DNA from: Ruegeria sp. TM1040
GTDB lineage: Bacteria > Pseudomonadota > Alphaproteobacteria > Rhodobacterales > Rhodobacteraceae
Direction: 5' to 3'
Length of the DNA stretch: 64,000 nucleotides
Assembly (NCBI RefSeq): GCF_000014065.1
Contig: NC_008044.1
Span: forward strand, 2,503,501-2,567,500
The translations under genes and the position numbers were made by a program. Below, one piece after another: positions 22,988-43,238 of this stretch. Positions within the stretch are counted from its first letter, which is position 1; each line of letters opens with the position of its first letter. Under the pieces are notes generated by a model. The model saw nothing but the letters and a program-made list of their open reading frames with translations, did no database searches and was not told the origin of the DNA.

Positions 22988-23077
22988 AAACTTCTTTTTA
23001 CCATATTTCCGAAAAACTTGTGCCCGATCTGAAGTATACCGTACTAGGGAATCTGGGTCGAAGTGAGGCGAGAATGA

Positions 23078-24732: not shown

Positions 24733-27700
24733 ATGGACAAGAAGACACCAAACGACGCGTTCAGCCCGGACGATATCGCCGTAGTCGGCATGTCGGTCGC
24801 TTTGCCGGGGGCAGCATCGGTTCAGGAATACTGGACCAACCTGCGCGATGGGATCGAGTCGATCCAGAGCGTCGATGAAGACAGTCTTCTTTCCGCTGGC
24901 GAGCGGGCGGAGACGCTGCGCGATCCCAATTATGTCCCCTCATGCGCGCCGCTAGATGGATTTGATGAATTTGATGCGGAGTTCTTTGGGTTTTCACCCA
25001 AAGAGGCGGCGATCCTGGACCCCCAGCATCGCAAGTTTCTCGAGGTGGCTTGGGGCGCAATGGAGGATGCGGGGCATACCCCAGAGAGCCTCAAAGGTCA
25101 GGTGGGCGTCTATGCGGGCTGCGGCATGGGCAGTTATTTCTATTTCAACATCTGCTCGAACCCAGATCTGGTGGATGACGTTGGCATGTTCCTTTTGCGC
25201 CACACCGGCAACGACAAGGACTTTCTCACCACCCGTGTGAGCCATGTCTTTGATCTAAAAGGGCCATCGGTCAACGTTCAGACCGCTTGTTCGACCTCGC
25301 TGGTTGCGATCCATTACGCCGCCGAGGCGCTGCGCAATGGCGAGTGCGACATGGCTCTGGCGGGGGGGGTGACGATCGAGCTCCCGCAGGGGCGCGGCTA
25401 CCTCTACAAGGAAAACGAAATCCTGTCGCCTGATGGTCATTGCCATGCCTTTGATCATCGCGCTCAGGGCACCGTCTTTGGCTCGGGTGCTGGGGCGGTG
25501 GCGCTCCGTCGACTGGGCGATGCAGTCGCGGACGGCGACCATATCTGGGCCGTGATCAAAGGCTCTGCCATAAACAATGACGGCGCCGCCAAGGCCGGTT
25601 ATCTGGCGCCCTCGGTAGACGGGCAGTCCGCCGCCGTGCGGAAGGCGCTGACAGCGGCGCGCGTGAATCCCGAGACCATAGACTATGTGGAATGTCACGG
25701 CACCGGCACCTATATCGGCGACCCCATCGAGGTGGCCGCCCTCACAGAGGCCTATCGCGACGGCACGGACGCCAAGGGCTATTGCCGGATTGGGTCGGTC
25801 AAAACCAATATCGGTCATCTCGATACCGCCGCTGGCGTGGCGGGTTTTGTAAAAACCGCGCTGGCACTGGAGCACAAAACCCTGCCGCCCTCGCTTGGCT
25901 TTGAGAAGCCGAACCCAACAATCGATTTTGAAACCTCGCCTTTTCAGGTCAACGACGCATTGCGCCCATGGATGTCCCACAAGGGCCCGCGCCGCGCAGC
26001 CGTGAATGCACTTGGCGTTGGGGGCACCAACGCGCATGCCATCCTCGAAGAGGCCCCGGTGCGCGCTGCCTCCGAGGAAAGCGATTTCCCGTTTCAGGTG
26101 CTCTGCCTCTCTGGCCAGACCAAAGCCGCGCTCGAGGCCAACACCCAGAACCTGATCGCCTATCTGCGCGCCAATCCCGAGGTTGAACTGGCCGATGTGG
26201 CCTTTACGCTCAAGGAAGGCCGCAGAGGGTTCGCCAAACGCCGCGTTGTGGTGGCCGAAACCGCCACCGAAGCCGCTGACAAGTTGGAAGCGGCCAATCC
26301 ACGCGAGGTCTTCACCCATGATCACCTCGGTCCGCAGCCCGAAACCGTCTTTATGTTCCCCGGCGGTGGAGCGCAGTTTGCGGGTATGGCGCGTGATCTC
26401 TATGAGACCGAACCAGTCTTTGCGGATTGGATGGATCAGGGTCTGGATCACCTGGAAAAGAGCCTCGATTTTGACATCCGCGCGCTGTGGCTGCCTGAAC
26501 CGGGTGAAGAGGCCAGCGCCAATGCGGCCCTCTTGAAACCTTCGGTGCAACTGCCACTCATTATGATCGTGGAATACGCGCTGGCGCAGCTATGGATCAG
26601 CTGGGGCGTTCGGCCCGCCGCCATGGTGGGGCACTCGATGGGCGAAAATACCGCGGCCTGTCTCGCGGGTGTAATGCGCTTTGAAGACTGCATCGACCTC
26701 GTACAACTGCGCGGGCGCTTGTTCGACACGATCGAGCCCGGTGGCATGTTGTCGATCTCGCTGCCGCTGGCAGAGGTGGAGACGCTGGTGGGCGAGGATC
26801 TGGACATCGCCAGCGTCAACGCCCCGGAACTCACCGCTGTCTCCGGCCCCAATGATCGCCTCGACGCCCTGTCCGAGCAACTTCGGGCGCGCGGCGTGGA
26901 GTTCCAGCGCATTCCCATCGATATTGCCGCCCACAGCCGCATGCTCGAACCTATCCTCGGCGCATATGGTGATTTCCTGCGCCGCCTTGATCTGCAACCT
27001 CCGACCCTTCCGGTGATGTCCAACCGCACCGGTCAGCCGCTCACGGCGGAACAGGCGATGAGCGCGGACTACTGGGTCGAGCAGCTGCGCAATACCGTGC
27101 GCTTTGCGGATTGCATCGAAACGCTCGGGGCCACCAAGGGACGCGTCTATCTTGAGGTAGGTCCCGGCAAGGCGCTGAGCGCTCTGGCTCAGATGTCTCC
27201 TGAAGTGGCACCGGGGCAGGTGCTGAGTTCTCTGCGTCACCCCGATCAAGACATTGCAGATGATGCCTATTTCTTTGGCGTAATCGGGCGCCTGTGGGCT
27301 TGCGGCGTCGAAGCGGATTGGCCGCAGGTCTGGGGCGACGCGCAGCGCAACCGCCTGAGCCTGCCCACCTACGCGTTCCAGCGCAACCGATACTTCATCG
27401 AGCCGGGGAAATCGGTGCAGCAACCCGAAGCCGCCCTGCCCGAACACCACAAAGACATGGCCGACTGGGGCTATCGCCCGGCCTGGCGGCCACGGCTGGC
27501 CGATTGTGCACTCGACATTGAAAACGACCTCGCGCTTGAGCCGCACAGCTGGCTCATTTTCGAAGATACCACGGGACAGGGGGCCGCCTGCGCCGAGGCG
27601 CTTCTCGCAGCCGGGCACCGCGTCGCGCGCGTGCGCGCAGGTGATACATATGCGCAGCTTGCACCCGATCTCTACCAACTGGCTCCCGAGGAGGGGCGAT

Positions 27701-30700
27701 TTGGAACCGAAGCGCTGCTGGCGGATCTGACCGAGGCGGGCTATTTCCCAGATCGGATCGCACATTTCTGGCTGGTCACGGAAACTGAAGAGTACCGGCC
27801 GGGCTCTTCGTTCTTTGACCGCAACGTTGAGATGGGGCTGATGTCCCTTACGGCATTAGGTCAGGCGCTGGCGCAGGCCGATTTGCCGCACTCCGTGCAT
27901 CTGAGCGTGATGACCACTGGTGCCATGCAGGTCCACGGCGAGTCCCTGCCCTATCCTGAAAAGGCGATGATCTCCGGGCCTGCCGGGATCATCCCGCGCG
28001 AGATCCCAGGTGTCACTGTCGCCACTTGCGACATCGAATTACCGCAAGCTCCAACCGGCTGGAACGCGCTCCTTGGGGGGTCAGCCCCTGCATGCATCAC
28101 AACGCGGCTCCTCGAAGAGCTGCTTGCCATGCCAGGCAACCACAGCGCTGCTTGGCGCGGTGAAAAACGCTTTGAGCTTGACTACCGCCCGCTTCCTCTC
28201 TCGGAGCCGGACGCACGTGATCTGCCGCTCAAGAAAGGTGGCCATTACCTCCTGACGGGCGGCTACGGCGGCATTGGGCTAACGATTGCGGAACATCTGA
28301 TGCGCACTTACGAGGCGCGAGTGACGCTTTTGTCGCGCGAAACGCTGCCGCCCCGCGCAGACTGGGGCAGAGAGCTGCGCCGCCGCAGCCCGTCCGATCG
28401 GATCGCGCAGCGCATCCGCGCGGTTCAGAAACTGGAGGCCACCGGACGCGGAGAGGTGCTGACGCTGAGCGCAGATGTCTGCAATCTTCAAGAAATGCGG
28501 GATGCTGCCGAGGCCGCCTCTGCTGCCTTTGGTCCGATCTCCGGCCTCTTCCATGGCGCCGGCTTTATCGCCGATGCGCCCCTCTTGGCCAAAACCGACC
28601 GGCAGATCGCTGAGGTGCTCGCGCCGAAAGTGAGTGGTTTGCGGGTTCTGGATCAGGTTTTCCCGGATGGCACCATTGATCTCATGGTGCTGTTCTCATC
28701 CTCGTCGACCGTCACGCGCCCCGCAGGGCAGGTAGATTATGTCGCAGCCAATGAGTTCCTCAATGCATGGGCAAAATCCCGACAGGGCGCTCAAACCCAC
28801 GTGGTGGCGCTGGACTGGGGGATCTGGGCGGATACCGGCATGGCAGCGGACGCCATGGCCGCCCGGCGCGGCAGCGCTGCGCCTTCGGAACCACAGCCCT
28901 CAGAGGCCGCGCTCTGGCAAACCCAAGGATTTGATCGGAACGGCACGCCCATATTCAAAAGCCGCTTTGAGGCGGACAAACACTGGCTCCTCGATGAGCA
29001 CCGCACCAAAGATGGCAGGGCCCTCATCCCCGGCACGGGCAATGTTGAGTTGATAGCCGAAGGGCTGACCGCGCTCGACGTCTCGCCACCATTTGAAATC
29101 CGCGATCTCTATTTTTTGCAGCCCTTTGTGGTTGAGGACGGCAGTCCGCGCGAAGCAGTGATGCATCTGGCTCCCACTCAAGGCGGCTATGACGTCCAGA
29201 TCCACGCCGAAACCTCGGAAGGATACGCGCGCACCGCAGAGGCCGAAGTCGTGTCGCGTGCGCTGGACGCAGAGACCCCGCAGCTTTCGTTGGAGGCCAT
29301 TGCCGCCCGCTGCACACCCAAAGCCGCAGATCCGGCAAGCGAGCGCCTGACATCGCCACAGGAGGCAAATCTGCGCTTTGGTCCACGGTGGCATGTGCTG
29401 CAATCCATGGCCCTTGGTCGCGATGAGGGGCTCGCCAAACTGTCGCTGCCGGATCTGGCCGACCAAGACGGGACACTTCTACACCCGGGCTTGCTGGACC
29501 TTGCAACCGGCTGGGCCATCGAATTGGCACCGGGATATGAGCCAAGCACGCTCTGGGTACCGGTGTCTTATGGATCGATCCGGGTCCACGCGCCCTTGGT
29601 GAAAACCGTCTTTAGCCACGTGCGCCTTGCGCAAGAAGGCGGCGAACGCGGCTCCGTGCTCTTTGACATCACCCTCTGCGACGAGACCGGGAACGTGCTG
29701 GTCGAGATCTCGCATTTCCGCATGCAACAGCTGAGCGGCGGCTTTGATCTCTTGCCCGCTCGCACCGACACCACAGCCGCCGCGCTTGGCCTCACCTCGG
29801 AGGCGGAGATACAGCCCCTTTCGCCGGATGAACGTCGTTTGCTGGCCAATCTCGAGAATGGCATTCGCAGTGAAGAGGGTGGCGCAGCGCTCGAGCGCGC
29901 ACTCGCCGCAAAGCAGCCTCAGGTCATTGTCTCTTCGCTCGATCTTTCGGCCCTGCGCGCGCAGGCGGAAAACGGGGCTGAAATCACGTCAGAGAGCGAA
30001 GGTCAGAGCTTTGAGCGCCCAGATCTGGATACGGATTATGTGGCGCCCAGCACCGAAACCGAAGAAACGCTCGCGGGGCATTTTGCAAGCCTTCTGGGCC
30101 TCTCGCGCGTTGGTGTAGAGGACAGCTTCTTTGATCTTGGGGGGCATTCCCTGATCGCAGTCCGTCTCTTTGCTCAGATCAAACGCAGCTTTGGGGTGGA
30201 GTTTGCGATGTCAGTCCTGTTCGACGCCCCCACTGTCGGAGCCCTGGCGCAACGCATTGATAAGGAGGCCGGCCCTCCGGCGGTCACGGTCACATCTACC
30301 AGCGACACGGAAACCACCACCCCGCAGAGCTACAGTCACCTGGTCCGCCTTGCGCCCGGCGAAAATGGCGAAGCGGCGCCGATGTTCATCGTTGCGGGCA
30401 TGTTCGGAAACGTTCTGAACCTGCGCCATCTTGCTCAAATCCTGGGAGAAGATCGCCCTGTCTATGGCCTGCAGGCGCGCGGGCTGATTGGCGCGGATGA
30501 ACCCCATGAGCGGATCGAAGACGCGGCGCGCGACTATATCGCTGAGATGCGGCTGGTGCAGCCGGAGGGGCCCTATCTGATTGGTGGTTTCTCGGGCGGC
30601 GGCATCACCGCCTATGAAATCGCGCAACAGCTCAAGGCCTCCGGCGACGCTGTGGACGCACTTGTGCTTCTTGATACGCCGCTTCCGGTGCGCCCCGACC

Positions 30701-31185
30701 TGAAACCGATCGACAAGACCCTGATCAAGATCGCCGAAATCCGCGCCAAAGGGCCCGGGTTTGTGACCGAATGGGCGCGCAACCGCATTGCCTGGGAAAT
30801 CCGCAAACGCCAGAGCCGCCCGTCCGAAGGGGCAGAGAATGCAGGCTTCAACAATCGTAAGATCGAATTGGCATTTTTGCGCGCTGTTGCCAGCTACACT
30901 GTGCAGCCCTGGAATGGACCGGTCACGCTCTATCGCCCGGTGCTGGACCAGCACTGGAAGGTCTCTGGCGGCCAGTGGGTGAGCCGCGAGCGCGAGTATG
31001 TTTATCCGGACAATGACTGGAAGCAGTTCGCTCCTGCGCTGGATGTATGCGAGGTGCCCGGCGATCATGATGGCATGGTGCTAGCGCCCAACGTCAGCGT
31101 TCTTGGCAAGAAAATCCGCGATCTGCTGGCGGCAACCAACAGTCGCGCGACCCGGCCTCACGACAGCTCTAAGGCGGCGGAGTAA
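24733..31185 (+). CDS. Polyketide synthase, KS-AT-KR-DH-ACP-TE
   Basis: A 2150-residue type I PKS. Ketosynthase: residues about 15-440, with the active Cys186 in QTACSTSL and histidines in VECHGTGTYIGDP and KTNIGHLD. Acyltransferase: about 535-830, Ser635 in GHSMGE, with IAAHS at the specificity position in place of HAFH or YASH. A structural and catalytic ketoreductase follows, with TGGYGGIG near 1173 and the Ser-Tyr-Asn set (LFSSSS, Tyr1335 in QVDYVAAN). A dehydratase-like hotdog domain has His1423 in DEHRTKDGRALIPG and an aspartate in LLHPGLLDLA. ACP Ser1806 is in DLGGHSL. Thioesterase: Ser1954 in GGFSGGG and a His in PGDHDG. ATG at 24733 chosen; an in-frame GTG at 24676 precedes it. Confidence 0.93.
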   Translation: MDKKTPNDAFSPDDIAVVGMSVALPGAASVQEYWTNLRDGIESIQSVDEDSLLSAGERAETLRDPNYVPSCAPLDGFDEFDAEFFGFSPKEAAILDPQHRKFLEVAWGAMEDAGHTPESLKGQVGVYAGCGMGSYFYFNICSNPDLVDDVGMFLLRHTGNDKDFLTTRVSHVFDLKGPSVNVQTACSTSLVAIHYAAEALRNGECDMALAGGVTIELPQGRGYLYKENEILSPDGHCHAFDHRAQGTVFGSGAGAVALRRLGDAVADGDHIWAVIKGSAINNDGAAKAGYLAPSVDGQSAAVRKALTAARVNPETIDYVECHGTGTYIGDPIEVAALTEAYRDGTDAKGYCRIGSVKTNIGHLDTAAGVAGFVKTALALEHKTLPPSLGFEKPNPTIDFETSPFQVNDALRPWMSHKGPRRAAVNALGVGGTNAHAILEEAPVRAASEESDFPFQVLCLSGQTKAALEANTQNLIAYLRANPEVELADVAFTLKEGRRGFAKRRVVVAETATEAADKLEAANPREVFTHDHLGPQPETVFMFPGGGAQFAGMARDLYETEPVFADWMDQGLDHLEKSLDFDIRALWLPEPGEEASANAALLKPSVQLPLIMIVEYALAQLWISWGVRPAAMVGHSMGENTAACLAGVMRFEDCIDLVQLRGRLFDTIEPGGMLSISLPLAEVETLVGEDLDIASVNAPELTAVSGPNDRLDALSEQLRARGVEFQRIPIDIAAHSRMLEPILGAYGDFLRRLDLQPPTLPVMSNRTGQPLTAEQAMSADYWVEQLRNTVRFADCIETLGATKGRVYLEVGPGKALSALAQMSPEVAPGQVLSSLRHPDQDIADDAYFFGVIGRLWACGVEADWPQVWGDAQRNRLSLPTYAFQRNRYFIEPGKSVQQPEAALPEHHKDMADWGYRPAWRPRLADCALDIENDLALEPHSWLIFEDTTGQGAACAEALLAAGHRVARVRAGDTYAQLAPDLYQLAPEEGRFGTEALLADLTEAGYFPDRIAHFWLVTETEEYRPGSSFFDRNVEMGLMSLTALGQALAQADLPHSVHLSVMTTGAMQVHGESLPYPEKAMISGPAGIIPREIPGVTVATCDIELPQAPTGWNALLGGSAPACITTRLLEELLAMPGNHSAAWRGEKRFELDYRPLPLSEPDARDLPLKKGGHYLLTGGYGGIGLTIAEHLMRTYEARVTLLSRETLPPRADWGRELRRRSPSDRIAQRIRAVQKLEATGRGEVLTLSADVCNLQEMRDAAEAASAAFGPISGLFHGAGFIADAPLLAKTDRQIAEVLAPKVSGLRVLDQVFPDGTIDLMVLFSSSSTVTRPAGQVDYVAANEFLNAWAKSRQGAQTHVVALDWGIWADTGMAADAMAARRGSAAPSEPQPSEAALWQTQGFDRNGTPIFKSRFEADKHWLLDEHRTKDGRALIPGTGNVELIAEGLTALDVSPPFEIRDLYFLQPFVVEDGSPREAVMHLAPTQGGYDVQIHAETSEGYARTAEAEVVSRALDAETPQLSLEAIAARCTPKAADPASERLTSPQEANLRFGPRWHVLQSMALGRDEGLAKLSLPDLADQDGTLLHPGLLDLATGWAIELAPGYEPSTLWVPVSYGSIRVHAPLVKTVFSHVRLAQEGGERGSVLFDITLCDETGNVLVEISHFRMQQLSGGFDLLPARTDTTAAALGLTSEAEIQPLSPDERRLLANLENGIRSEEGGAALERALAAKQPQVIVSSLDLSALRAQAENGAEITSESEGQSFERPDLDTDYVAPSTETEETLAGHFASLLGLSRVGVEDSFFDLGGHSLIAVRLFAQIKRSFGVEFAMSVLFDAPTVGALAQRIDKEAGPPAVTVTSTSDTETTTPQSYSHLVRLAPGENGEAAPMFIVAGMFGNVLNLRHLAQILGEDRPVYGLQARGLIGADEPHERIEDAARDYIAEMRLVQPEGPYLIGGFSGGGITAYEIAQQLKASGDAVDALVLLDTPLPVRPDLKPIDKTLIKIAEIRAKGPGFVTEWARNRIAWEIRKRQSRPSEGAENAGFNNRKIELAFLRAVASYTVQPWNGPVTLYRPVLDQHWKVSGGQWVSREREYVYPDNDWKQFAPALDVCEVPGDHDGMVLAPNVSVLGKKIRDLLAATNSRATRPHDSSKAAE

Positions 31186-31188
31186 TTG

Positions 31189-32211
31189 ATGGCGCGCAAC
31201 ACGATCCTCACGATCATCCTGAATTTTCGCACGCCTGCCATGACCCTCAAAGCGGCAGAAGCCGCATTGGAGGAGATGGAAGACCTGCCGGGCGAGGTGC
31301 TGATAATCGACAATGGCTCGGGTGATGGATCTTTCGAGGCTCTGCAGGCAGGCGCCGCCGCGCGCGGCTGGCTTGACAGCGGACGGTTGCGCATCGAGGC
31401 CTCCCCTGTGAACGGCGGGTTTGGTGCCGGCATGAATATCGGCTTTCGCGCATTGCTTTCGGACGGTACGCGGCCGGACTTCTTTTATCTGCTCAATTCG
31501 GACGCGTTTCCGGAACAAGACTGCATCTCCACCCTGAGGGACTTCTTGCTCAAGACGTCCGAGGCGGGGCTTGCAGGATCTTATGTCCATGGTGAGGACG
31601 GTACTCCGCATTGTACGCTCTTTCGATTTCCAACAATCGCAAGCGAATTTGAAGGGGCCGCGCGTACAGGTTTCATTTCGCGTTTGTTGAAACATGCCAT
31701 CGTGCCCTTGGACATTCCATCTGCCGTGCAACAGGTGGACTGGACCGCCGGAGCCAGCATGATGATCCGCCGCAACGTGATCGAAGCCGTCGGCGGGTTT
31801 GACGAGACGTTCTTTCTCTACTTCGAGGAAACCGAACTGTGCCACCGCGCTGCGCGTGCGGGCTGGCGCACCTATTACGTCCCACACAGCACGATCACCC
31901 ATGTCGGATCGGCCTCGACCGGAATGAAGACGTGGGCGCGCACGCCAGAGTTCTGGCTCGACTCGCGGCTTCACTATTTCACGCAGAGCCACGGAGCGCT
32001 CTATGCGGTTGCCGCGACCTGCGCACGGCTCCTCGGAGGGTCAATTTATGGCTTGCGTCGCCTGATATCCGACAAGCCCCGGGCTGATGCGCCACATTTT
32101 TATGGCGACTTGACGCGCCATCATGTCAAACGCGCGCTTCGGCCACGTCCCGCACCGCGCCCCGCACGGCCCTTTGCACCTGACCCCGTCTTGGAGGACA
32201 ACAAGTCATGA
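31189..32211 (+). CDS. Family 2 glycosyltransferase, rhamnosyltransferase-like
   Basis: A 340-residue GT2 protein. IIDNGSGDGS (about residue 38), NGGFGAGMNIGF (about residue 75) and LLNSDAFPE (about residue 101) are the nucleotide-sugar and metal-binding motifs typical of WbbL/rhamnosyltransferase-like enzymes. FDETFFLYFEETELCHRA is the later acidic motif. ATG at 31189 with GGAG at 31179-31182, four bases after the PKS stop. It overlaps the NRPS start (ATGA). No clear membrane segment. Placement between PKS and NRPS suggests it acts on the same product or its polymer. Confidence 0.88.
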   Translation: MARNTILTIILNFRTPAMTLKAAEAALEEMEDLPGEVLIIDNGSGDGSFEALQAGAAARGWLDSGRLRIEASPVNGGFGAGMNIGFRALLSDGTRPDFFYLLNSDAFPEQDCISTLRDFLLKTSEAGLAGSYVHGEDGTPHCTLFRFPTIASEFEGAARTGFISRLLKHAIVPLDIPSAVQQVDWTAGASMMIRRNVIEAVGGFDETFFLYFEETELCHRAARAGWRTYYVPHSTITHVGSASTGMKTWARTPEFWLDSRLHYFTQSHGALYAVAATCARLLGGSIYGLRRLISDKPRADAPHFYGDLTRHHVKRALRPRPAPRPARPFAPDPVLEDNKS

Positions 32212-35200
32212 CTATTTCAACCGTCGTCATTGGCAATGAATCCCTGCTGATCGGTTGTTGCGAGGCCTTGCTGGCACGCGGTCATGATATTCGCGCCGTC
32301 GTCAGCACAGATGCTGAGATCACCTCTTGGGCAGCCTCCAAGGGTTTGAACACACATTCTAAGCCGCTAGAGATTGACATTGAATTCGACTGGCTTTTGT
32401 CGATTGCAAACCTGCAGGTCCTGCCAGAGGCGGTGATCTCCAAAGCGCGACTGGGGGCGGTCAACTTTCACGATGGCCCGCTGCCAGACCGGGCGGGTCT
32501 CAATACGCCAAATTGGGCCATTCTCGAAGGCGCTGAAGAGCATGGCATCACGTGGCACCTGATCGAAGGCGGCGTCGACGAGGGCGATATTCTGGCCCAG
32601 CGCCGGTTTGCGATTGCACCAGATGAGACGGCCTTTAGCCTCAACTCCAAATGCTACGGTGCTGCACTCGACAGCTTTGGCGAAGTGCTCGAGCAACTCG
32701 AGAGCGGCGCACTAGAGCGCACGCCGCAAGACCTCAGCCATCGCCGCTATCATGCACGCAAGGATCGCCCCGATGCGGCTGGCTTCTTGCGGTTTGACCG
32801 CAACCGCGACACGCTTTTGTGTCTGGTGCGGGGCCTTGATATGGGCGGCTATTGGAACCCGTTGACCACGGCCAAAATCCGCTTGCCGGGACAGGTCGCT
32901 GCGGTCGGTGCAGCGCAAGCCACCGAAGGCGAGGGTATTCCGGGGGAAGTTCTCGCGGTGAGCGCAAATGCTCTGACCGTCGCCTGCGCCGATGGTGCAA
33001 TAGAACTGCGCGACCTGAAGACCCTCTCGGGAGGGGCGTTGCAGCCCTCTGCCCTCCTCGAAGTGGGTGATGTGCTGCCCACCCTCTCCGATCAAGAGGT
33101 GGAGGCCCTCAATGCGGCGGCGCAGACCTGCCAAAAGGCGGAACCTTATTGGCGCCGCTCTTTGGCTGAGATGCTACCCTTGCCCGTGCCACTGCAGGGC
33201 GCGGAACTCGACGTCGAGGCCACTGCCGACATCCAGTTGCCGACGGATTGTGCGCCCCAGACCCTGATGGCCGCAATGCTGGCGTGGCTGTTGCAGAGCC
33301 TCGGTGAGACCGCAGGCTCAATCGCGCTCTCGCTACCGGATCTACAAACGTCAGACGACTTGGGAGTGCTTTCAAACTGGGTGCCGCTGAGCGCGGAGAT
33401 CGACGAAAAGATCAAAACTGTAGAGGCCCGCGCGGCCGAGGTTCTGGACCGCTTGGACAACATGGGGGGCTTTGCAACCGACCTCATCCTGCGCGCGCCG
33501 GAAGTCACGATTGAAACACCTCCAGAGGTTGCGCTGTGCCTTGGGACGAACCTCGCCCCCGCACAGGCCAAACTGGCCCTGATCCAGTCGGATAGCCGAT
33601 TGCAGCTGCGCTCTTGCCAGCTATCACCCGAGGCGCTGTCGATGCTGGCTGCGCGGCTTCAGTGCCTCTTGAACACGCTGCCCGAAGACGGTGCAGCGAC
33701 GCTCTCCACGCTGCCAATGCTGCCAGATTCAGAGCGGACGCGCCTGATTGAGACATGGAACGATACCGGTTGTGACTACCCCACAGATCAAACCATTCAC
33801 GCCGCTTTTGAGGCGCAGGTGGCAAGAACCCCAGATGCGATAGCGGTCGTTTTTGAAGATCAACAGCTGACCTATCGCGCGTTGAACCAACGCGCTGACG
33901 CGCTGGCCCGACATCTGCATGACCTCGGTGCAAAACCGGGCAGCCATGTGGGCGTGTATCTGCGTCGCTCCATGGATCTGGTGATTGCAACGCTTGGTAT
34001 TTTGAAGGCCGGCGCGGCCTATGTACCGCTTGATCCTACCTACCCTGCCGACCGTATCGCGCATTACATCACCGACAGTCAGGCCGCGGTCATTGTCACC
34101 CATGAAAGCCTCGCTGCGGAACTCCCCGAAAGCGATGCCAGGCAGCTGCATCTCGACGCGCTCGACCTCACAACCGAGGCGGACCCGATCCGGGCAGGTG
34201 CTGCCGAAGATCTCGCGTATCTGATCTATACCTCAGGCTCCACGGGCTTGCCAAAAGGCGTGATGGTGCGTCATCGCAATGTGGCGAACTTCTTTACCGC
34301 GATGGATGCGCGCATCCCCCATCAGCCGGGAGACGCCTGGCTCGCGGTGACAAGCCTCTCGTTTGATATTTCGGTGCTGGAGCTTTTCTGGACGCTTGCG
34401 CGCGGCTTCAAACTGGTGCTCTCCAGCGACGAAAGCCGCCTACAGCTGGCCAACGGTCCCATCGGGCTCAGCGATCGCAAGATGGATTTCAATCTCTATT
34501 ACTGGGGCAATGACGACGGCGCGGGCGAAAAGAAATACGAATTGCTTCTAGAGGGCGCCAAGTTTGCGGATGCCCATGGGTTCAATGCGGTCTGGACGCC
34601 AGAGCGGCACTTCCACGCCTTTGGTGGCCCCTACCCGAACCCCTCCGTGACCGGTGCCGCCGTGGCAGCGGTGACCCGCAATATCGGTGTGCGGGCCGGC
34701 TCCTGTGTGGCGCCGCTTCATCACCCCGCGCGCATCGCCGAAGAATGGGCGGTCATCGACAATCTGACGGGCGGGCGCGCGGGTATTGGCTTTGCCTCGG
34801 GCTGGCAGCCGGATGACTTCATCTTGCGCCCCGAGAACACGCCGCCTGCCAACAAACCAGCGCTGTTTGAAGCCCTTCAGACAGTGCGAAAGCTCTGGCG
34901 AGGCGAAGAAGTCGCTTTCCCGCGCGCGGATGGTGGCCAGCATTCGGTGGTCACGCAACCACGCCCGGTTTCAGAGGAACTTGCCGTCTGGGTCACCACG
35001 GCAGGCAACCCGGAGACATGGCGCGAGGCTGGGCGCGTGGGGGCCAATGTGCTTACGCATCTTCTAGGCCAGAGTATCGACGAGGTCGGCGACAAGATCG
35101 CGCTATACCATGCCGCGCTGCGCGAGGCGGGGTATGACCCGGCGGATTTCACCGTGACACTCATGTTGCACACCTATCTCGCCGAGACCCGCGAGGCCGC

Positions 35201-36767
35201 CCGCGAGGTGGCGCGCGAGCCGATGAAGGACTACCTGCGCTCTGCGGCTGGGCTCATTAAACAGTATGCCTGGGCTTTTCCAGCGTTCAAACGCCCAAAG
35301 GGCGTCGACAATCCCTTTGAAATGGATCTTGGCAGTCTCAGCAGCGAGGAGCTGGAAGCCATCCTCGATTTCGCATTTGAGCGATACTTCGAAGAGTCAG
35401 GTCTCTTTGGCACGGTCGACGACGCAGTCGCGCGCGTCGAGGATCTCAAGCGCATCGGCGTCGATGAGGTCGCCTGCCTGATTGATTATGGGATTGCACC
35501 GCATGTGGTGCTTGAAGGGCTCAAACCCCTTGCAGAAGTCCTGCGCCGCTCCAATCGCGTGCAAGAGTTGGCAAATGATGACTTCTCGCTCGCCGCGCAG
35601 ATCGTGCGTCACGGGGTGACGCATATGCAATGCACCCCCTCGATGGCGCGCATGATTGCCTCTGATGCAGATGCAAGCCCCGCGCTCGGGCGCTTGCGAC
35701 ACCTTCTCGTTGGCGGCGAGGCCTTGCCCGGCGATCTTGTTGCCGCCCTGCGCGAGCAGACCAGGGCCACGCTTCACAATATGTATGGCCCCACTGAGAC
35801 TACGATCTGGTCCACGGTTGAAACGCTGGAACGCGCCCCAACGGGTATTGCCCCGATCGGAACGCCTGTGGCCAATAACTCTGTCTACGTTCTCGACGCC
35901 AAGGGGCAACTCGCCCCCGTCGGGGCGGCAGGTGAACTCTACATCGGCGGCGCAGGCGTGACGGCCGGGTATTGGCGGCGCGACGCGCTCACGGCCGAAC
36001 GGTTCCCCGATGATCCCTTCCTGTCAGGGCAAAAGATGTATCGTACCGGGGATTTGGTGCGGTGGCGCGAGGACGGCAAGCTCGATTTTCTCGGGCGCAC
36101 GGATCATCAGGTCAAGATCCGCGGCCAGCGGATCGAACTGGGCGAAATCGAAACCGCGCTGACCGCAGTCGAGGGCGTGACCGCTGCCGTTGTGATCCCA
36201 CGCAAGGTCGGCTCAGACGAGCGGCTGGTTGGCTATGTCACCGCATCCGGCGTTTTCTCAGAGACCGAGGCCAAGGCACAACTGTCGCGGCAACTCGCCG
36301 GGGCAATGGTGCCGTCACACATAGTGGTGCTTGAGGCTTTCCCTCTGACGCCCAACAAGAAAATCGACCGCAAGGCGCTGCCCGACCCAACCCCCAGCCG
36401 ACAAGAAGCACATGTAATCTCTGCCGAACCTCAGTCGCCCGTACAGCAGAAGATCTCGGAGATCTGGAAGGCGCTCCTTGGCGTGCCGGCTGTTGGCAAA
36501 AGCGATAATTTCTTTGCGCTCGGTGGGCATTCCCTATTGGCGGTTCAGGCTCATCGCGACATTCGCAGCGCGCTTGAGGTCGAGCGGTTGTCGATCACGG
36601 ATATCTTCCGCTTTCCGACCCTTGACGGGTTGGCCTCACACCTGGAACACCTGCAGACCGGCGACACCACGGTTGCGGAGACGTCCCCTGCCGCCCCGGC
36701 AGGGCGTGCAGACACCATGTCCAAACGCCGCGCAATGCGCGCCAATCGCAAAGCCCGCTCTGGATGA
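32208..36767 (+). CDS. NRPS: formyltransferase, partial C, A split by luciferase-like monooxygenase, PCP
   Basis: A 1519-residue one-module synthetase. Residues 1-290 are a Fmt-like formyltransferase with the catalytic Asn86-His88-Asp124 set (VNFHDGP, GGVDEGD). About 310-510 resembles the C-terminal half of a condensation domain and has no HHxxxDG motif. The adenylation domain starts near 525, with YTSGSTGLPKG (about 673) and FDIS (about 718). It is interrupted at about 755-1100 by a flavin luciferase-like monooxygenase (YYWGNDDG, TPERHFHAFGG, GIGFASGWQP) and resumes with NMYGPTETTIW, YRTGDL and KIRGQRIELGEIE. Carrier Ser1442 is in LGGHSL. No thioesterase. Overlaps both neighbours by four bases. 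Confidence 0.93.
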   Translation: MTISTVVIGNESLLIGCCEALLARGHDIRAVVSTDAEITSWAASKGLNTHSKPLEIDIEFDWLLSIANLQVLPEAVISKARLGAVNFHDGPLPDRAGLNTPNWAILEGAEEHGITWHLIEGGVDEGDILAQRRFAIAPDETAFSLNSKCYGAALDSFGEVLEQLESGALERTPQDLSHRRYHARKDRPDAAGFLRFDRNRDTLLCLVRGLDMGGYWNPLTTAKIRLPGQVAAVGAAQATEGEGIPGEVLAVSANALTVACADGAIELRDLKTLSGGALQPSALLEVGDVLPTLSDQEVEALNAAAQTCQKAEPYWRRSLAEMLPLPVPLQGAELDVEATADIQLPTDCAPQTLMAAMLAWLLQSLGETAGSIALSLPDLQTSDDLGVLSNWVPLSAEIDEKIKTVEARAAEVLDRLDNMGGFATDLILRAPEVTIETPPEVALCLGTNLAPAQAKLALIQSDSRLQLRSCQLSPEALSMLAARLQCLLNTLPEDGAATLSTLPMLPDSERTRLIETWNDTGCDYPTDQTIHAAFEAQVARTPDAIAVVFEDQQLTYRALNQRADALARHLHDLGAKPGSHVGVYLRRSMDLVIATLGILKAGAAYVPLDPTYPADRIAHYITDSQAAVIVTHESLAAELPESDARQLHLDALDLTTEADPIRAGAAEDLAYLIYTSGSTGLPKGVMVRHRNVANFFTAMDARIPHQPGDAWLAVTSLSFDISVLELFWTLARGFKLVLSSDESRLQLANGPIGLSDRKMDFNLYYWGNDDGAGEKKYELLLEGAKFADAHGFNAVWTPERHFHAFGGPYPNPSVTGAAVAAVTRNIGVRAGSCVAPLHHPARIAEEWAVIDNLTGGRAGIGFASGWQPDDFILRPENTPPANKPALFEALQTVRKLWRGEEVAFPRADGGQHSVVTQPRPVSEELAVWVTTAGNPETWREAGRVGANVLTHLLGQSIDEVGDKIALYHAALREAGYDPADFTVTLMLHTYLAETREAAREVAREPMKDYLRSAAGLIKQYAWAFPAFKRPKGVDNPFEMDLGSLSSEELEAILDFAFERYFEESGLFGTVDDAVARVEDLKRIGVDEVACLIDYGIAPHVVLEGLKPLAEVLRRSNRVQELANDDFSLAAQIVRHGVTHMQCTPSMARMIASDADASPALGRLRHLLVGGEALPGDLVAALREQTRATLHNMYGPTETTIWSTVETLERAPTGIAPIGTPVANNSVYVLDAKGQLAPVGAAGELYIGGAGVTAGYWRRDALTAERFPDDPFLSGQKMYRTGDLVRWREDGKLDFLGRTDHQVKIRGQRIELGEIETALTAVEGVTAAVVIPRKVGSDERLVGYVTASGVFSETEAKAQLSRQLAGAMVPSHIVVLEAFPLTPNKKIDRKALPDPTPSRQEAHVISAEPQSPVQQKISEIWKALLGVPAVGKSDNFFALGGHSLLAVQAHRDIRSALEVERLSITDIFRFPTLDGLASHLEHLQTGDTTVAETSPAAPAGRADTMSKRRAMRANRKARSG

Positions 36768-37474
36768 TTGCACCCCGACCCGCGCCACAGGATATCTCGC
36801 AGCAGCGCCAGCACGCGCTGCGCCAACTCTTGTCAGATCCGATCGCAATCGCCACCTGCGACCCACATGGTGACCTCCCGGAACCCTTTGCCGAAGAAAG
36901 CGCCTGCTTGTCGCCCAATGCCGTGGAAAAGCGGCGGCGCGAATTTGCCGCCGGGCGCGCCTCGGCGCATCAGGCGATGCGCGCGTTGGACCAACCCTGT
37001 GCGCCGATCCTTATCGGGCCGAAACGCGCGCCTCTTTGGCCAGAGGGTCTGACCGGCAGCATCACGCATTGTGCCTCCTGCGCCATGGCGGCGGTTGGGT
37101 TTACACGCGACTTTACCGGCATCGGCGTCGATGTCGAAGAGGACACCCCTCTGTCGCGCGACCTGTGGGACAGCATCGCAAGCCCCGCCGAACAGACCTG
37201 GATCGCTGCACAGCCTGACCCCGGCCAAGCTGGCAAACTGCTGTTTTCTGCGAAAGAAGCCGCCTACAAGGCTCAGTATTCCCGTTCAGAGCGCTTTTTC
37301 GGCTTCAGTGGGCTCGAACTTGTCTTTGACACAAACAAAGGGCAGTTCACGGCCTGTTTCACCTCGGATCAATTGCCTTACCGCAGCGGAGATCTCCTCC
37401 GGGGTCGATTTGCGATCACCACTGGGGTAATCATCACCGCGGTTGAAATCTCAAAGAATGAGCTGTGCCCATGA
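36764..37474 (+). CDS. 4'-phosphopantetheinyl transferase, EntD/Sfp family
   Basis: A 236-residue transferase expected to load phosphopantetheine onto the ACP and PCP serines of the two synthetases. The signature is clear: GSITHCASCAMAAV (about residue 93), then GIGVDVEEDTPL (about residue 120, metal-binding Asp and Glu) and FSAKEAAYKAQY (about residue 163). An EntD-like N-terminal segment is present. The ATG overlaps the NRPS stop, and the stop overlaps the next gene. Having a dedicated enzyme inside the gene train supports active synthetases. Confidence 0.93.
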   Translation: MIAPRPAPQDISQQRQHALRQLLSDPIAIATCDPHGDLPEPFAEESACLSPNAVEKRRREFAAGRASAHQAMRALDQPCAPILIGPKRAPLWPEGLTGSITHCASCAMAAVGFTRDFTGIGVDVEEDTPLSRDLWDSIASPAEQTWIAAQPDPGQAGKLLFSAKEAAYKAQYSRSERFFGFSGLELVFDTNKGQFTACFTSDQLPYRSGDLLRGRFAITTGVIITAVEISKNELCP

Positions 37475-38436
37475 TGAATCGCCTGCGCCATCTGCCGCGC
37501 CGCGCTTTGCTGCTGATCTGCGCCGCCCTACCGGTTGGCGCGCTCACGCTTTGGTCTCTGGGATCGCGCGGCTCCAGCCCAGTCGAGGTCCCACCACTTC
37601 CAGCCCCGCAGGCCCCATTGACGGTGTATCACCTCGGACACTCACTGGTGGGCGCGGATATTCCGCATTTCCTGGCGCAGTTTGCAGGCTCCGGCCACGC
37701 CTACAATGTCCAGCGCGGCTCAGGTACAGCGCTGAGAGCGCATTGGGAAGAAAGCGAGCCGATCCTCGACTTTGACAAGGTCAACGCCGCTCCGATCTGG
37801 CGGGACCCCAAAGAGGCGCTCTCCACGACGGACTATGATGCTGTGATCTTCACCGAAATGGTGGAGCTGCGCGATGCGATCAAGTATTTCGACGGTGCAC
37901 GCTATCTCAATCGGTGGGCCGATCTGGCACGCAAAGGCAACCCGAACGCCCGGCTCTATCTGTATGAGACATGGCACCGGCTCGACGATGCCGAAGGGTG
38001 GCTCAATCGTATTGACGCCGATCTGGAGGCGCTGTGGTTGGATGAACTCGCTGCCCGCGATGACCGCGCGGCCTCGGACCAGCCCTTGTATCTCATCCCC
38101 GGAGGCCAGGTGCTTGCCGCCGTTACACGCGCAGCCGAAGCCGGGGAGATCAACGGCTTCTCAGACCGCGAGGCGCTGTTTGATCTGCTGCCGGACGGCA
38201 CGCGCGACCAGATCCATCTTAGCCCGCTTGGCGCCTATATCGTCGCGCTTACGCATTATGCGGTGCTTTATCATCGCACTCCTGAGGGCCTGCCCCACAG
38301 GGTAGCCCTTGCCGATGGTACGGAATTCAAAGCACTCGACGCAGAAACCGCCCGCCAGTTGCAATCCATCGTATGGCGCACCGTCACCCACCTGCCCCGC
38401 ACCGGCGTAGCAAGTGCCAAATCGGAGGCATCATGA
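37471..38436 (+). CDS. Membrane-anchored or exported SGNH-like hydrolase/transferase
   Basis: A 321-residue protein with a basic N-terminus and a hydrophobic segment (residues about 8-27), acting as a signal or anchor, then a proline-rich linker. The body looks SGNH-like: YHLGHSLVG (block I, with His replacing Asp of GDS), and near the C-terminus DQIHLSPLGAYI (the Asp-x-x-His block). The same two blocks and a YETWHRL segment recur in the next protein, so the two are paralogues. Such proteins can be esterases or acyltransferases acting on glycans. The substrate is unknown. ATG at 37471 overlaps the preceding stop. Confidence 0.7.
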   Translation: MMNRLRHLPRRALLLICAALPVGALTLWSLGSRGSSPVEVPPLPAPQAPLTVYHLGHSLVGADIPHFLAQFAGSGHAYNVQRGSGTALRAHWEESEPILDFDKVNAAPIWRDPKEALSTTDYDAVIFTEMVELRDAIKYFDGARYLNRWADLARKGNPNARLYLYETWHRLDDAEGWLNRIDADLEALWLDELAARDDRAASDQPLYLIPGGQVLAAVTRAAEAGEINGFSDREALFDLLPDGTRDQIHLSPLGAYIVALTHYAVLYHRTPEGLPHRVALADGTEFKALDAETARQLQSIVWRTVTHLPRTGVASAKSEAS

Positions 38437-40970
38437 GCACGGAGGCCCTCATCACTGCCGTGATGATGATTGGGCATTCTCTGATCGGTCCTGAAAATCC
38501 GCGCATGCTGCAACAGCTTCTTCAGGCCGGGCAAGAGAACCGACCCGTGGTCGAGTTCCAGATCATCAACGGTGCGCCCCTGCGGTATAATTGGGAACAC
38601 GCCGACAAGGCCCAGGGGGTCAATGCCCGCACGCGCCTCGCCGAAGCTCCGGTGGATGCGCTGATCGTGACAGAGGCGATCCCGCTCGCCAATCATCTGC
38701 GCTGGAGCGATACCGAAGGCGCGATAGAAAAATTCTATAGCGTCGCCGCCCAGTCGAACCCCAATGTGACACTATATGTCCAGGAGGGCTGGCACAGCCT
38801 CTTGAGCGGAACCGGAGAAGAGGTGCCCTTTGATGACGGGGGCGACGTGGCCTGGCGCAGCCGCCTCGACAACGATCTGCCCCATTGGCAGGGTGTCGTA
38901 GAAAAAGTGCGCTCAAACACCGGCGGCGACATTCGCCTCTTACCCACAGGGCAAGCCCTTGGTCGTCTCGCGGACGCCATCGAAACCGGCACCGTGCCGG
39001 GGTTGAGTAGGATCAACGATGTCTTTTCGGACGACATTCACCCCAATGACATCGGGTTCTATTACCTCGCGCTTGTGCAATATGCGGTGCTCACCGGCAC
39101 CTCGCCCGAAGGCCTGCCACGCGTCCTGAAAACCGAATGGGGCACACCCTACAAGGCGCCTTCTGCCGATCTTGCGCTGCGCTTGCAGGAAATTGCGGCG
39201 GGCGCGGCCACGGGATCACAAGCGCGCATGACGCTTCCACCGGATCCTGTCGCGTTGCCGCTCGAGCCCGGGCCTGCAATCCTGAATGACGAGACCTCTG
39301 TTGCTGCCCTGCCATCCGGGAAACCGATTGTACGCAAGCAGCCGATTGCGATGAACCTTGCCGCGATCCGCGATTGGAGCCCGCAGGCACCTTTCCTCGA
39401 TCACTTCAAGACCGCGCGCGCCTGGATCGGACATTTGCCCGGGCGCTGGGGCGGTGTCACCGAAGAAGAGCTGCGCGCCGCAGGCTATCTCGACCCGGAT
39501 GGCTGGCCGCTCGCTATTCCGCCCGAGCTTGGCTCCATTGGAACCGTGCTCTTGAACGATCTGCCAGAAACCGCCAACAGCCTCTCGGGGCGCTATGTCG
39601 TGCGCTTTGACGGCAAAGGCATCGTCGAGGCGGGGGGGCGGGCAAAAAATGTCCGCTATGGCAAAAACCAGGTCTCGTTTGATTTTGAGCCCGGTCCCGG
39701 CGCGGTGGATATTCGCATTCAACGCTCTGATCGCGCGGGTACGGGCGACTATGTGCGCAACATCACCGTGGTGCGCGAACGCGACCTGCCAGCCTATGAT
39801 CAAGGGGCGCTGTTCAACCCGGACTGGCTTGACCGGATAGAAGGCTTTGCCGCGCTACGTTTCATGGATTGGATGGATACCAACAATTCGGACCAGATCG
39901 GTTGGGAGGATCGTCCGCGCTATCGCGACTACACTTGGAGCACCCGCGGTGTGCCCGCCGAGGTCCTCGTGACGCTTGCCAACCGCGTGGGCGCCGATCC
40001 CTGGTTCACCCTGCCACATATGTCCGACGATACTTATGTCCGCAATTTCGCCACGCTCGTGCGCGATGGACTGGACGAAGACCTAAAAGCCTATGTGGAA
40101 TATTCCAACGAGGTCTGGAACTGGCAGTTCCAACAGGCCCAATGGGCAGACAAGCAGGCGCAGGAGGCCTGGGGCAAAGACGGTCTGTGGCTGCAGTATT
40201 ATGGGGCAAGATCCGCCGAAATCGCCGAGATCTGGACCGAGGTTTTTGCTGAAGGCACGGATCAAGTACAGCTGCCTGACCGCCTTGTTCGGGTGATGTC
40301 CACTCAGACCGGCTGGCTCGGGCTTGAAGAGCAAATCCTGACTGCGCCGCTTTGGACGGCCGAAGACCCGGATCGCCAGCCACCCTACCGCAGTTTTGAT
40401 GCCTATGCCGTCACCGGATATTTTGGAGCATCACTCGGAATGCAGGAACAGGCGCCCATGGTGCGCGCCTGGCTCGCTGACAGCCGCGAGCGCGCGCGTG
40501 ATGCCGGGGTTCAAAACGGCCTGCGCGGGGCGGCGTTGGCCGGCTATGTTGAGGACCATCAGTTCGACATCGCAACCGCGCAGGCCCTGGTCGAATTGCA
40601 GGATGGGTTGAACAGCGGCTCGCAAGAGGGCGCGCTAAACGACCTCTTGGCGCGCATCCTCCCTTATCATGCCAAGGTTGCGGCAGAACACGACCTGGAA
40701 CTTATCATGTATGAGGGCGGCACCCATGTGGTCGGCCACGGCCCGCTGGTCGATGATGACGCGCTGACCGCGTTTTTCACGCATCTGAACTACAGTCCGG
40801 AGATGGGCGAGCTTTATCGCAAGCTGCTCAATGCCTGGCCCGACATCGGCGGAACCCTGTTTGGCGCCTATTCCGATGTGTCGGTACCAGGGCGCTGGGG
40901 CAGCTGGGGCAACTTGCGGACCCTTTCAGACAAAAACCCCCGCTGGGATGTGTTGGAGGCAGCCAGGTGA
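38433..40970 (+). CDS. SGNH-like domain fused to glycosidase-like barrel
   Basis: An 845-residue protein. Residues about 1-275 repeat the SGNH-like fold of the previous gene (MIGHSLIG near residue 12, YVQEGWHSL, DDIHPNDIGFYY near residue 205). After a linker there is a beta-rich section (about 310-460) and then a barrel-like domain with AYVEYSNEVWNWQF (about residue 553, a likely acid/base Glu) and LIMYEGGTHVVG (about residue 755, a possible nucleophile), reminiscent of clan-A glycoside hydrolases. ATG at 38433 has GGAGG five bases before it. No signal peptide is visible at this start. Enzymatic activity is inferred, not proven. Confidence 0.65.
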   Translation: MSTEALITAVMMIGHSLIGPENPRMLQQLLQAGQENRPVVEFQIINGAPLRYNWEHADKAQGVNARTRLAEAPVDALIVTEAIPLANHLRWSDTEGAIEKFYSVAAQSNPNVTLYVQEGWHSLLSGTGEEVPFDDGGDVAWRSRLDNDLPHWQGVVEKVRSNTGGDIRLLPTGQALGRLADAIETGTVPGLSRINDVFSDDIHPNDIGFYYLALVQYAVLTGTSPEGLPRVLKTEWGTPYKAPSADLALRLQEIAAGAATGSQARMTLPPDPVALPLEPGPAILNDETSVAALPSGKPIVRKQPIAMNLAAIRDWSPQAPFLDHFKTARAWIGHLPGRWGGVTEEELRAAGYLDPDGWPLAIPPELGSIGTVLLNDLPETANSLSGRYVVRFDGKGIVEAGGRAKNVRYGKNQVSFDFEPGPGAVDIRIQRSDRAGTGDYVRNITVVRERDLPAYDQGALFNPDWLDRIEGFAALRFMDWMDTNNSDQIGWEDRPRYRDYTWSTRGVPAEVLVTLANRVGADPWFTLPHMSDDTYVRNFATLVRDGLDEDLKAYVEYSNEVWNWQFQQAQWADKQAQEAWGKDGLWLQYYGARSAEIAEIWTEVFAEGTDQVQLPDRLVRVMSTQTGWLGLEEQILTAPLWTAEDPDRQPPYRSFDAYAVTGYFGASLGMQEQAPMVRAWLADSRERARDAGVQNGLRGAALAGYVEDHQFDIATAQALVELQDGLNSGSQEGALNDLLARILPYHAKVAAEHDLELIMYEGGTHVVGHGPLVDDDALTAFFTHLNYSPEMGELYRKLLNAWPDIGGTLFGAYSDVSVPGRWGSWGNLRTLSDKNPRWDVLEAAR

Positions 40971-41809
40971 CAGCCCCTCCCCAGCGCCGGATTTCCATCC
41001 TCATCCCCGCCCACAACGAGGCCGACTATATCGGTGATTGTCTCACAGCGCTTTATGCGTCTGAGATTCTCGGGCACGAGATTGAAGTCTTGGTGCTGGC
41101 AAATGGCTGCACTGACGAGACGGTTGCACGTACGAGAGAGATCCCCGCCCCCGAAGGCTGGAGGCTGCGCATTCTGGAGCGGGCAGAGGGCGGCAAACTT
41201 GCGGCTCTCTCCGAGGGTGATCGCGCCGCAACTGGGGATATTCTGGTGTATCTGGATGCCGATGTTCAGGTTGAAACAGACCTGCTGGCGCAAATTGCAG
41301 AGGCTCTCGGCAAAGGCCCAGCCCTCTACGCCAGTGGCACGCCATGTGTGGTCCCAGCACAGAGCGCGATCACCCGTGCCTATGCACGCGCATGGGTCCG
41401 CCTCCCTTTTGTAAGGATTGGCACGCCGGGGTTTGGGATCTTTGCCATGACCCGCGCCGGGCGGGCGCGCTGGCAAGACTGGCCCGCGATCATCTCAGAC
41501 GACACCTTTGCGCGGTTGAACTTTCGCCCTGAGGAGCGCATCCGCCTGCCCGGTCGCTATCATTGGCCCATGGTCGAAGGGTTTCGCAACCTCACCCGTG
41601 TGCGCAGACGACAGGATCGCGGCGTCGAGGAGATCAAGGAGCTGTTTCCACAGCTTTTGCAAAATGACGACCGACGCCCGTCTAGCGCACACAGCCTTGC
41701 TCGCGTCGCGCTGACACGTCCTCTCGATGCCACAGTCTATGTTGCCGTTGCACTGGCGGTGAAAACCAACCTGTTTGCTTCAAATGTGGTTTGGACGCGC
41801 GGGCGCTAA
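40967..41809 (+). CDS. Family 2 glycosyltransferase
   Basis: A 280-residue GT2 protein, last of the PKS/NRPS gene train. ISILIPAHNEADYIG is the nucleotide-binding start, VLANGCTDET the next loop and VYLDADVQVE (about residue 93) the DxD metal motif, followed by GTPGFGIFAMTR and the ISDDTFARLNF acceptor motif. GTG start overlapping the previous stop by four bases. A weak hydrophobic segment occurs near the C-terminus. It converges with the GT4 gene, 10 bases away, closing the operon. Confidence 0.88.
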   Translation: MTAPPQRRISILIPAHNEADYIGDCLTALYASEILGHEIEVLVLANGCTDETVARTREIPAPEGWRLRILERAEGGKLAALSEGDRAATGDILVYLDADVQVETDLLAQIAEALGKGPALYASGTPCVVPAQSAITRAYARAWVRLPFVRIGTPGFGIFAMTRAGRARWQDWPAIISDDTFARLNFRPEERIRLPGRYHWPMVEGFRNLTRVRRRQDRGVEEIKELFPQLLQNDDRRPSSAHSLARVALTRPLDATVYVAVALAVKTNLFASNVVWTRGR

Positions 41810-43034: not shown

Positions 43035-43238
43035 GCCGGTTGATCCCTTTCCGCGGTCCGCACTGAAACCTAGCCGGATCACCGGATTTTGCCCAGACTG
43101 AACCACCTCGCGCGCTCTTTTGCGCACACCCGTGGTCCAAAAGGCTACCCCACCCCATCTGCCCCGGTGCGGCGATTGACCTCCTGCCAGCGCGGACTTA
43201 GCCTTGGGACGACCCTCAATGGCTCGACCTGGATCCCA

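Follow-up and report, generated by a model that had tools for sequence, protein, structure and literature searches.

A mini PKS-NRPS line apparently coupled to a surface-polysaccharide locus in Ruegeria sp. TM1040 and its relatives

The genome of Ruegeria sp. TM1040 (4.15 Mb) carries, within the 64,000 nucleotides analyzed here (contig NC_008044.1, positions 2,503,501 to 2,567,500; this whole stretch is called the window and its own numbering is used), a type I polyketide synthase (PKS) gene and a nonribosomal peptide synthetase (NRPS) gene amid genes of a surface-polysaccharide locus. The coupling of this mini PKS-NRPS line to such loci is real and widespread, and apparently unstudied as far as searches of the open-licence literature reach. 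Seven genes on the plus strand have been located at the positions given by an initial annotation made from the sequence: the PKS (24733-31185), a family 2 glycosyltransferase between PKS and NRPS that we call GT2a (31189-32211; PF00535, 40 bits), the NRPS (32208-36767), a 4'-phosphopantetheinyl transferase (PPTase) for carrier-domain activation (36764-37474; PF17837 and PF01648), an SGNH-hydrolase-like protein with an N-terminal hydrophobic helix (SGNH1, 37471-38436), a protein joining an SGNH domain to a TIM-barrel glycosidase-like domain (38433-40970), and a further family 2 glycosyltransferase (GT2b, 40967-41809; PF00535, 76.8 bits). Pfam and NCBIfam agree with the names of the PKS, the NRPS, the PPTase and both glycosyltransferases, and those of the two SGNH genes are backed by predicted structures. 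Five junctions are four-base ATGA or GTGA overlaps, and the PKS and GT2a are set apart by 3 bases; the overlaps at "six of seven" junctions initially reported are a miscount, since seven genes have six junctions.

The NRPS opens with a formyltransferase domain (~32208-33080) and a residual condensation region, after which come an adenylation domain in two parts (33807-34442 and 35571-36362), interrupted by a luciferase-like monooxygenase (34488-35540; TIGR04020, 475 bits versus a cut-off of 244), and a carrier domain (peptidyl carrier protein, PCP; 36447-36644). The cautious term "residual" has been chosen because, between formyltransferase and adenylation domain, a profile has recognized no more than the end of a condensation domain and the condensation-adenylation linker; a phmmer search with this region has given nothing clear. 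As counted from alignments, the Asn, His and Asp of the formyltransferase are kept in 75, 77 and 76 of 78 NRPS sequences, respectively, the carrier Ser in all 78, and each fixed position of the Gly-like adenylation code D-I-L-Q-(M/L)-G-M-I-W-K in 74-78; the HHxxxDG motif, counted by text pattern, is found in none. A conserved basic tail (36717-36764, ADTMSKRRAMR-like; Arg in 76 and Met in 69 of the 78) has been noticed behind the carrier at the C-terminus, which might act as a peptide for docking onto the PKS. A selenocysteine or a broken NRPS has been considered as well, as one TGA was flagged in several matches; eight of these have been fetched, and because no stop lies inside their tblastn alignments, the flagged TGA falls beyond the alignments and fits the natural stop.

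The PKS shows, by Pfam, the order ketosynthase (KS, approximately 24769-25902), acyltransferase (AT, 26347-27183), ketoreductase (KR, 28240-28833), dehydratase (DH, 28939-29736), acyl carrier protein (ACP, 30067-30258) and thioesterase (TE, from 30382), with the KR ahead of the DH. It is mono-modular, and no enoylreductase domain has been recognized in it by Pfam. The catalytic residues checked in KS, AT, KR, ACP and TE, together with the DH His and Asp, are kept in all of the 71 PKS relatives long enough to count (a PKS match is present in 79 loci). The two proteins together form a hybrid line of an NRPS loading module and a PKS module, both complete and with intact active sites. The NRPS most likely loads the PKS, because the NRPS sequences lack the HHxxxDG motif and a release domain has been found by Pfam solely on the PKS, with none on the NRPS; the same direction is supported by genome G144, in which a relative that matches the NRPS over almost all of its length lies immediately 5' of a KS-AT-KR-DH-ACP-C-A-PCP-TE line (C, condensation; A, adenylation).

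Of 295 genomes of the family (294 genera), 102, about a third, have a match to the NRPS that reaches 1000 bits or more. Few matches at E ≤ 1e-150 come from beyond the family (1 of 6 hits in a class sample of 337 genomes, 6 of 16 in a phylum sample of 398). A scan of named genomes has confirmed at least 557 relatives, the best 80 of which by NRPS are used here, with flanks of ~10 kb, as the 80 named loci; being the best-scoring, they may favor conserved settings, and they are mostly Rhodobacteraceae-type records plus three labelled Hydrogenophaga. Among the matches listed, the closest named relative by NRPS is Tritonibacter scottomollicae (76%), nearer records possibly having been left out. PKS, GT2a and NRPS are contiguous in 79 of the 80 loci, the remaining one (L108) beginning at a contig end, and the PPTase follows directly in 75. 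The genes further downstream come and go, relatives of SGNH1 being present in 47, of the SGNH-glycosidase in 56 and of GT2b in 58 loci. The seven genes are accordingly not conserved as one train; the conserved unit is PKS-GT2a-NRPS(-PPTase). Because this core order recurs in many genera, the arrangement is not due to chance. The local gene order is that of the window in 35 of the loci (type A), has GT2b and Wzx upstream of the PKS in 25 (type B), and is of another kind or cut in 20.

Several copies lie in less usual places. Genomes G132 (contigs C72 and C142) and G126 (C6 and C47) hold two near-full-length NRPS copies each, and the second copy of G126 has no GT2a orthologue on the same contig. 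In the three loci labelled Hydrogenophaga (Betaproteobacteria), the unit shows 55-56% identity and adjoins glycan-type genes, some of them weakly matched; L059 and L063 are metagenome-assembled genomes and L079 is titled H. pseudoflava NBRC 102511, which suggests horizontal transfer, or mislabelled bins in the case of the two metagenome-assembled genomes. On plasmids, PKS-GT2a-NRPS has been found amid glycosyltransferase, DegT and sugar-transferase genes in Ruegeria, and the NRPS, PPTase and a divergent PKS in Shinella, in a locus with export, WecG and glycosyltransferase genes. In a Paracoccus plasmid the formyltransferase is a separate gene, and a second gene of C-A-PCP-TE type, whose start is cut, adjoins WecG. 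A Gloeothece verrucosa plasmid (L113, 5404-18963) has a C-A-PCP-TE NRPS adjoining a GT2a relative (39%); a cadherin-like protein encoded nearby matches the SGNH-glycosidase (32%, 254 bits). An Allocoleopsis plasmid has been set aside, as its GT2 is more distant (38%) and has no annotated NRPS adjacent to it.

That the core of the train recurs beside Wzx/Wzy-type genes in relatives has been borne out: of a set of six markers (Wzx, Wzy, Wzz, WecG, ExoY and a kinase-like P-loop ATPase; tblastn, E ≤ 1e-8, a few matches being weak at 24-30% identity), one or more are present in 77 of the 80 named loci, with relatives of the ATPase in 51. Of the marker-less loci, L076 has ManC and an acyltransferase, and L106 has DegT, two family 4 glycosyltransferases (GT4) and epimerases, which brings the loci with glycan genes nearby to 79; the last, L036, is a short contig of 9.9 kb. 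Less selected than the named loci are the best 80 of the 102 NRPS-positive family genomes, all of which carry WecG (95 copies, a single one in 67 genomes). In 69 of these genomes a copy is no more than 20 kb away from the NRPS, compared with ~1 expected under uniform placement, in two it is at 26 and 35 kb, and in nine on a different contig, whereas only 15 of 80 NRPS-negative family genomes (the first 80 by handle number of the 161 that gave no NRPS match at 1e-50 and form the complement of the positives) have WecG at all; given their shared ancestry, these genomes do not count as independent events. Orthologues of GT2a (300 bits or more, with the next match at 192 bits and the best candidates per genome scored) have been found in 99 of the 295 family genomes, all 99 with the NRPS, and none has been seen in NRPS-free genomes; the NRPS reaches at least 1000 bits in 94 of them and is fragmentary or decayed in five. 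At 104 NRPS places, GT2a is within 200 bp in 87, farther away on the contig in three, and absent from the contig in 14, several of which are at contig ends. The link of the PKS-NRPS pair to a surface glycan, which the initial annotation drew from co-location, is thus strongly supported by cross-genus co-location and co-occurrence, whereas its chemical part stays a proposal.

In the window, the flanks are as initially described, except that a GT4 gene (41820-43127, minus strand; PF13692/PF00534) between GT2b and Wzx had been left out. Upstream of the PKS lie a third family 2 glycosyltransferase (GT2c, 21118-22116, plus; PF00535, 57 bits), a WecG/TagA/CpsF-family glycosyltransferase (22184-23158, minus, start of the reading frame uncertain; PF03808, 141 bits), which is the sole match at E ≤ 1e-15 in this genome, and a Wzy-like polymerase/ligase (23078-24544, plus; PF04932, Wzy_C, 23 bits, under the cut-off of 31.7). 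Downstream of the GT4 gene follow a Wzx-like flippase (43089-44591, plus, start uncertain; PF13440, 156 bits), a Wzz-like chain-length protein (44600-45874, minus; PF02706, 21.6 bits, under the cut-off of 25.5), a P-loop ATPase beside Wzz that we label as possibly tyrosine-kinase-like (45908-47281, minus; a weak ParA match under the cut-off), and an ExoY-like initiating sugar-phosphate transferase (47250-47984, minus; PF02397, 195 bits). Of the components of a Wzx/Wzy-type locus, the initiating transferase and the flippase are present, and the Wzy, Wzz and kinase-like labels are based on sub-cut-off Pfam matches; no Wza outer-membrane exporter has been found among the window's open reading frames scanned, no genome search aimed at Wza having been made. 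An Omp85/TamA-like gene and a TamB gene (15179-21114; Omp85 114 bits, TamB 154 bits by Pfam) directly precede the glycan locus, and TamB relatives adjoin it in 7 of the 80 named loci.

Neither SGNH gene has a Pfam or NCBIfam match. The AlphaFold2 model of SGNH1, built on relatives, has a mean predicted local distance difference test score (pLDDT) of 91.4, and its nearest solved folds are SGNH-type hydrolases, with CE2/CE3, PatB, OatA and the acyltransferase SsfX3 lower down, at moderate template-modelling scores (TM-scores). For the SGNH-glycosidase (AlphaFold2 model likewise built on relatives, mean pLDDT 86.0), Foldseek has returned SGNH lipases and CE3 as well as barrels of galactanase, arabinofuranosidase, xylanase and beta-glucosidase type. 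Its E560 and E761 are invariant across 23 sequences and would fit, by our own assignment, the pair of a retaining glycosidase. The SGNH domains of the two proteins are related to each other (29% identity, E 6e-32).

Natural variants of the line have been found in two family genomes, G085 and G097, the two of the 295 in which a monooxygenase-free NRPS was recovered with the G097 NRPS as query (E ≤ 1e-180). In G085, monooxygenase and DH are gone and the KR is without its Ser-Tyr-Asn; no change is seen at the residues checked in KS, AT, formyltransferase, A, PCP, ACP and TE. G097 has replacements at the active sites of KS, AT, KR, formyltransferase and PCP, the DH His has become Tyr and the PKS frame is split by a stop; the A domain with its Gly code, the ACP Ser and the TE Ser, Asp and His are kept. 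The 1208-aa open frame with dead KS-AT-KR sites that is kept in G097 ahead of the in-frame stop (L139-L140) is perhaps retained as a scaffold. Both loci hold GT2a (51 and 49%), PPTase, Wzy, Wzx, GT2b and SGNH-glycosidase relatives. This pattern of retention therefore suggests a glycine-derived group, carried on the ACP and handled by the TE, as the part under selection, and by their residues G085 and G097 would make simpler glycine-derived groups.

In the Dlt (D-alanyl-teichoic acid) and Alm (glycyl-lipid A) systems, an adenylation domain and a carrier load an amino acid that is then passed to a surface glycan, and Dlt also has an SGNH-fold protein, DltD. The window has an A domain with Gly-like code and a PCP for an amino acid likewise, and the G097 system would work most alike; in contrast to Dlt and Alm, the PKS of the window would extend and modify the amino acid before thioesterase release. 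No membrane acyltransferase has been found among the window's open reading frames scanned, the rest of the genome not having been searched. Among solved structures, the formyltransferase comes closest to ArnA, and LgrA ranks lower. LgrA, the linear gramicidin synthetase with a formyltransferase-A-PCP start module, resembles the NRPS in having the formyltransferase ahead of the adenylation domain and is among the solved relatives of both; it is not known to have an inserted monooxygenase, a PKS or a glycan context. The monooxygenase domain is by sequence closest, among solved structures, to PuwE (PDB 6ket, 344 bits), which belongs to a cyanobacterial lipopeptide pathway. A glycine primer, with oxygenase and dehydratase at the start of the line, has been proposed for the oxime modules of necroxime type (PMC7318616); these belong to large trans-AT lines making free macrolides, as opposed to two modules in a glycan locus, and have been compared by description. 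Oxidation of nitrogen is proposed there for the glycine primer and oxidation of carbon for palmerolide (PMC8739492), and by analogy the monooxygenase of the NRPS could oxidize either. Mono-modular type I PKS have been described from rhizobial and Burkholderia capsular polysaccharide loci (RkpA and WcbR; PMC3908369), and by description the window resembles them in a single-module type I PKS amid capsule or glycan genes. It differs in the order KS-AT-KR-DH-ACP-TE and in that the PKS is paired with a PPTase, an interposed GT2 and an NRPS of formyltransferase-A(Gly)-monooxygenase type. A PKS (Inhi_1972) and an NRPS (Inhi_1974) of Phaeobacter inhibens (PMC4062626) may be members of the unit, which their numbering would fit, and so may the PKS and NRPS-like clusters, dissimilar to any known cluster, that are described for Tritonibacter mobilis AK171 (PMC11225332). 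No account of a link of the PKS-NRPS cluster to polysaccharide has been found in searches of the open-licence literature aimed at the cluster and this link, at the monooxygenase and oxime chemistry, and at RkpA.

Domain content, conserved catalytic residues, the Gly-like code, and physical and phyletic linkage to glycan genes form the observed basis, from which we infer the NRPS-to-PKS direction, the product, its attachment and the transferase. We think it somewhat probable that a glycine-primed two-module line supplies a short acyl group to the surrounding Wzx/Wzy-type polysaccharide. The NRPS would adenylate glycine onto its own carrier, where the formyltransferase would N-formylate the glycine unit and the monooxygenase would oxidize its nitrogen or alpha carbon. 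One malonyl unit would be added by the PKS, followed by reduction and dehydration, and the terminal thioesterase would free the acyl product or hand it to a sugar. GT2a would be the dedicated partner that ties the acyl group to the repeat unit, and the SGNH and SGNH-glycosidase proteins may trim or move acyl groups and glycan.

A number of observations weigh against an acyl group supplied to the polysaccharide. Trains away from glycan genes, which the initial annotation had regarded as evidence against a link, do exist in a minority, namely in G217, G185 and G292, and clearly so for G185. Their PKS (53-55% identity) and NRPS (51-55%) keep all checked catalytic residues, and neither GT2a nor recognized glycan neighbors have been found in the surrounding 32-40 kb with the glycan proteins of the window; their product may therefore have another use or act in trans. 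In G185, all five neighbors scanned are non-glycan, e.g., glutamine synthetase, a trimethylamine methyltransferase and a lipoyl-synthase-like protein. The absence of a glycan setting appears less clear for G217, with a Pfam match in one of eight neighbors scanned (a cobalt transporter subunit), and for G292, with matches in three of six (an efflux protein, porphobilinogen deaminase and UbiA-HAD), a UbiA gene being present also in the glycan locus of the Ruegeria plasmid; SGNH1 has been found alongside the copies of G217 and G292, and the PPTase alongside those of G185 and G292. Among more distant sequences, G900 has a TRAP transporter and glutamate dehydrogenase as neighbors, and large NRPS lines are present in G144 and G888. 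Glycan neighbors do accompany two copies outside the family, G756 and G861. G924, with an acyltransferase and a polysaccharide-lyase-like protein within the 40 kb fetched, could fall on either side. G574, which lies outside the family and shows a weak GT4 only by the window proteins, has been dropped as a counterexample, because UDP-sugar dehydrogenase, Wzy_C and DegT genes found by Pfam make it a glycan locus. The distance-matrix correlations (PKS-NRPS 0.90, PKS-GT2a 0.86, NRPS-GT2a 0.80) are matched by those with Wzz (0.88 for PKS, 0.87 for NRPS) and therefore do not single out the core. No gene family beyond the core is present in all 80 named loci, and therefore no dedicated acyltransferase is pointed to within the ~10-kb flanks, the rest of the genomes not having been searched. 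The glycine reading of the code relies on comparison with the standard glycine code DILQLGLIWK, which G085 has exactly. The group proposed to be under selection is a lead from two genomes and one interrupted gene, and the PKS gene of G097, interrupted by a stop, could be a pseudogene.

The intact copies without recognized glycan neighbors would suit a small molecule made in free form (a signal, a metal binder or an antibiotic) and sharing locus and regulation with the polysaccharide, e.g., in a biofilm state, as would the bigger line of metabolite type in G144, whose loading module is the same, the non-glycan setting of G900 and a thioesterase that can release a free acid. However, GT2a lies between PKS and NRPS and is found only in NRPS genomes, the association persists over two local gene orders (35 and 25 of the 80 loci), and WecG is rarer in NRPS-less genomes, and we regard a free molecule as rather unlikely. 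The same position of GT2a in 79 of 80 named loci, and its absence from the stretches around the three stand-alone copies, would also agree with a product that is a true backbone or side-chain residue of the repeat unit and is glycosylated by GT2a; as GT2a has ordinary GT2 matches only, and a non-sugar acceptor is hypothetical, this seems unlikely. A lipid or primer role has been one idea on the RkpA/WcbR-type PKS of capsule loci. Applied to the window, where the product would anchor or start the glycan chain, it gains from the precedent that a single-module PKS may belong to a capsular locus (PMC3908369). Yet a Gly-type adenylation domain primes the unit, the one PKS module has no recognized enoylreductase, although iterative use of the PKS is possible, and the locus has its own ExoY-type initiating transferase, which makes a lipid or primer improbable.

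Returning to the acyl group supplied to the polysaccharide, the product expected of a cluster that belongs to the surface glycan is a polymer-bound group instead of a free metabolite, a possible reason why a metabolite search would miss it. In a bolder form, to which we would give a little less than an even chance, roughly one in three of the family's sampled genera would have as their main surface polysaccharide a hybrid polymer, each repeat of which carries a glycine-primed NRPS-PKS residue or substituent. The group would be tuned by domains switched off, from a reduced and oxidized C4 amide over the unreduced formylglycyl-ketide of G085 to the plain glycyl of G097, with thioesterase, carrier and partner glycosyltransferase kept, and the decayed natural variants would offer a testable series of predicted structures. 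If the cluster belongs to the surface glycan, natural-product assembly lines would be joined to exopolysaccharide chemistry in a group of bacteria of which many are marine. The findings suggest that these bacteria build or decorate their sugar coat with a custom chemical group, likely a glycine-based acyl.

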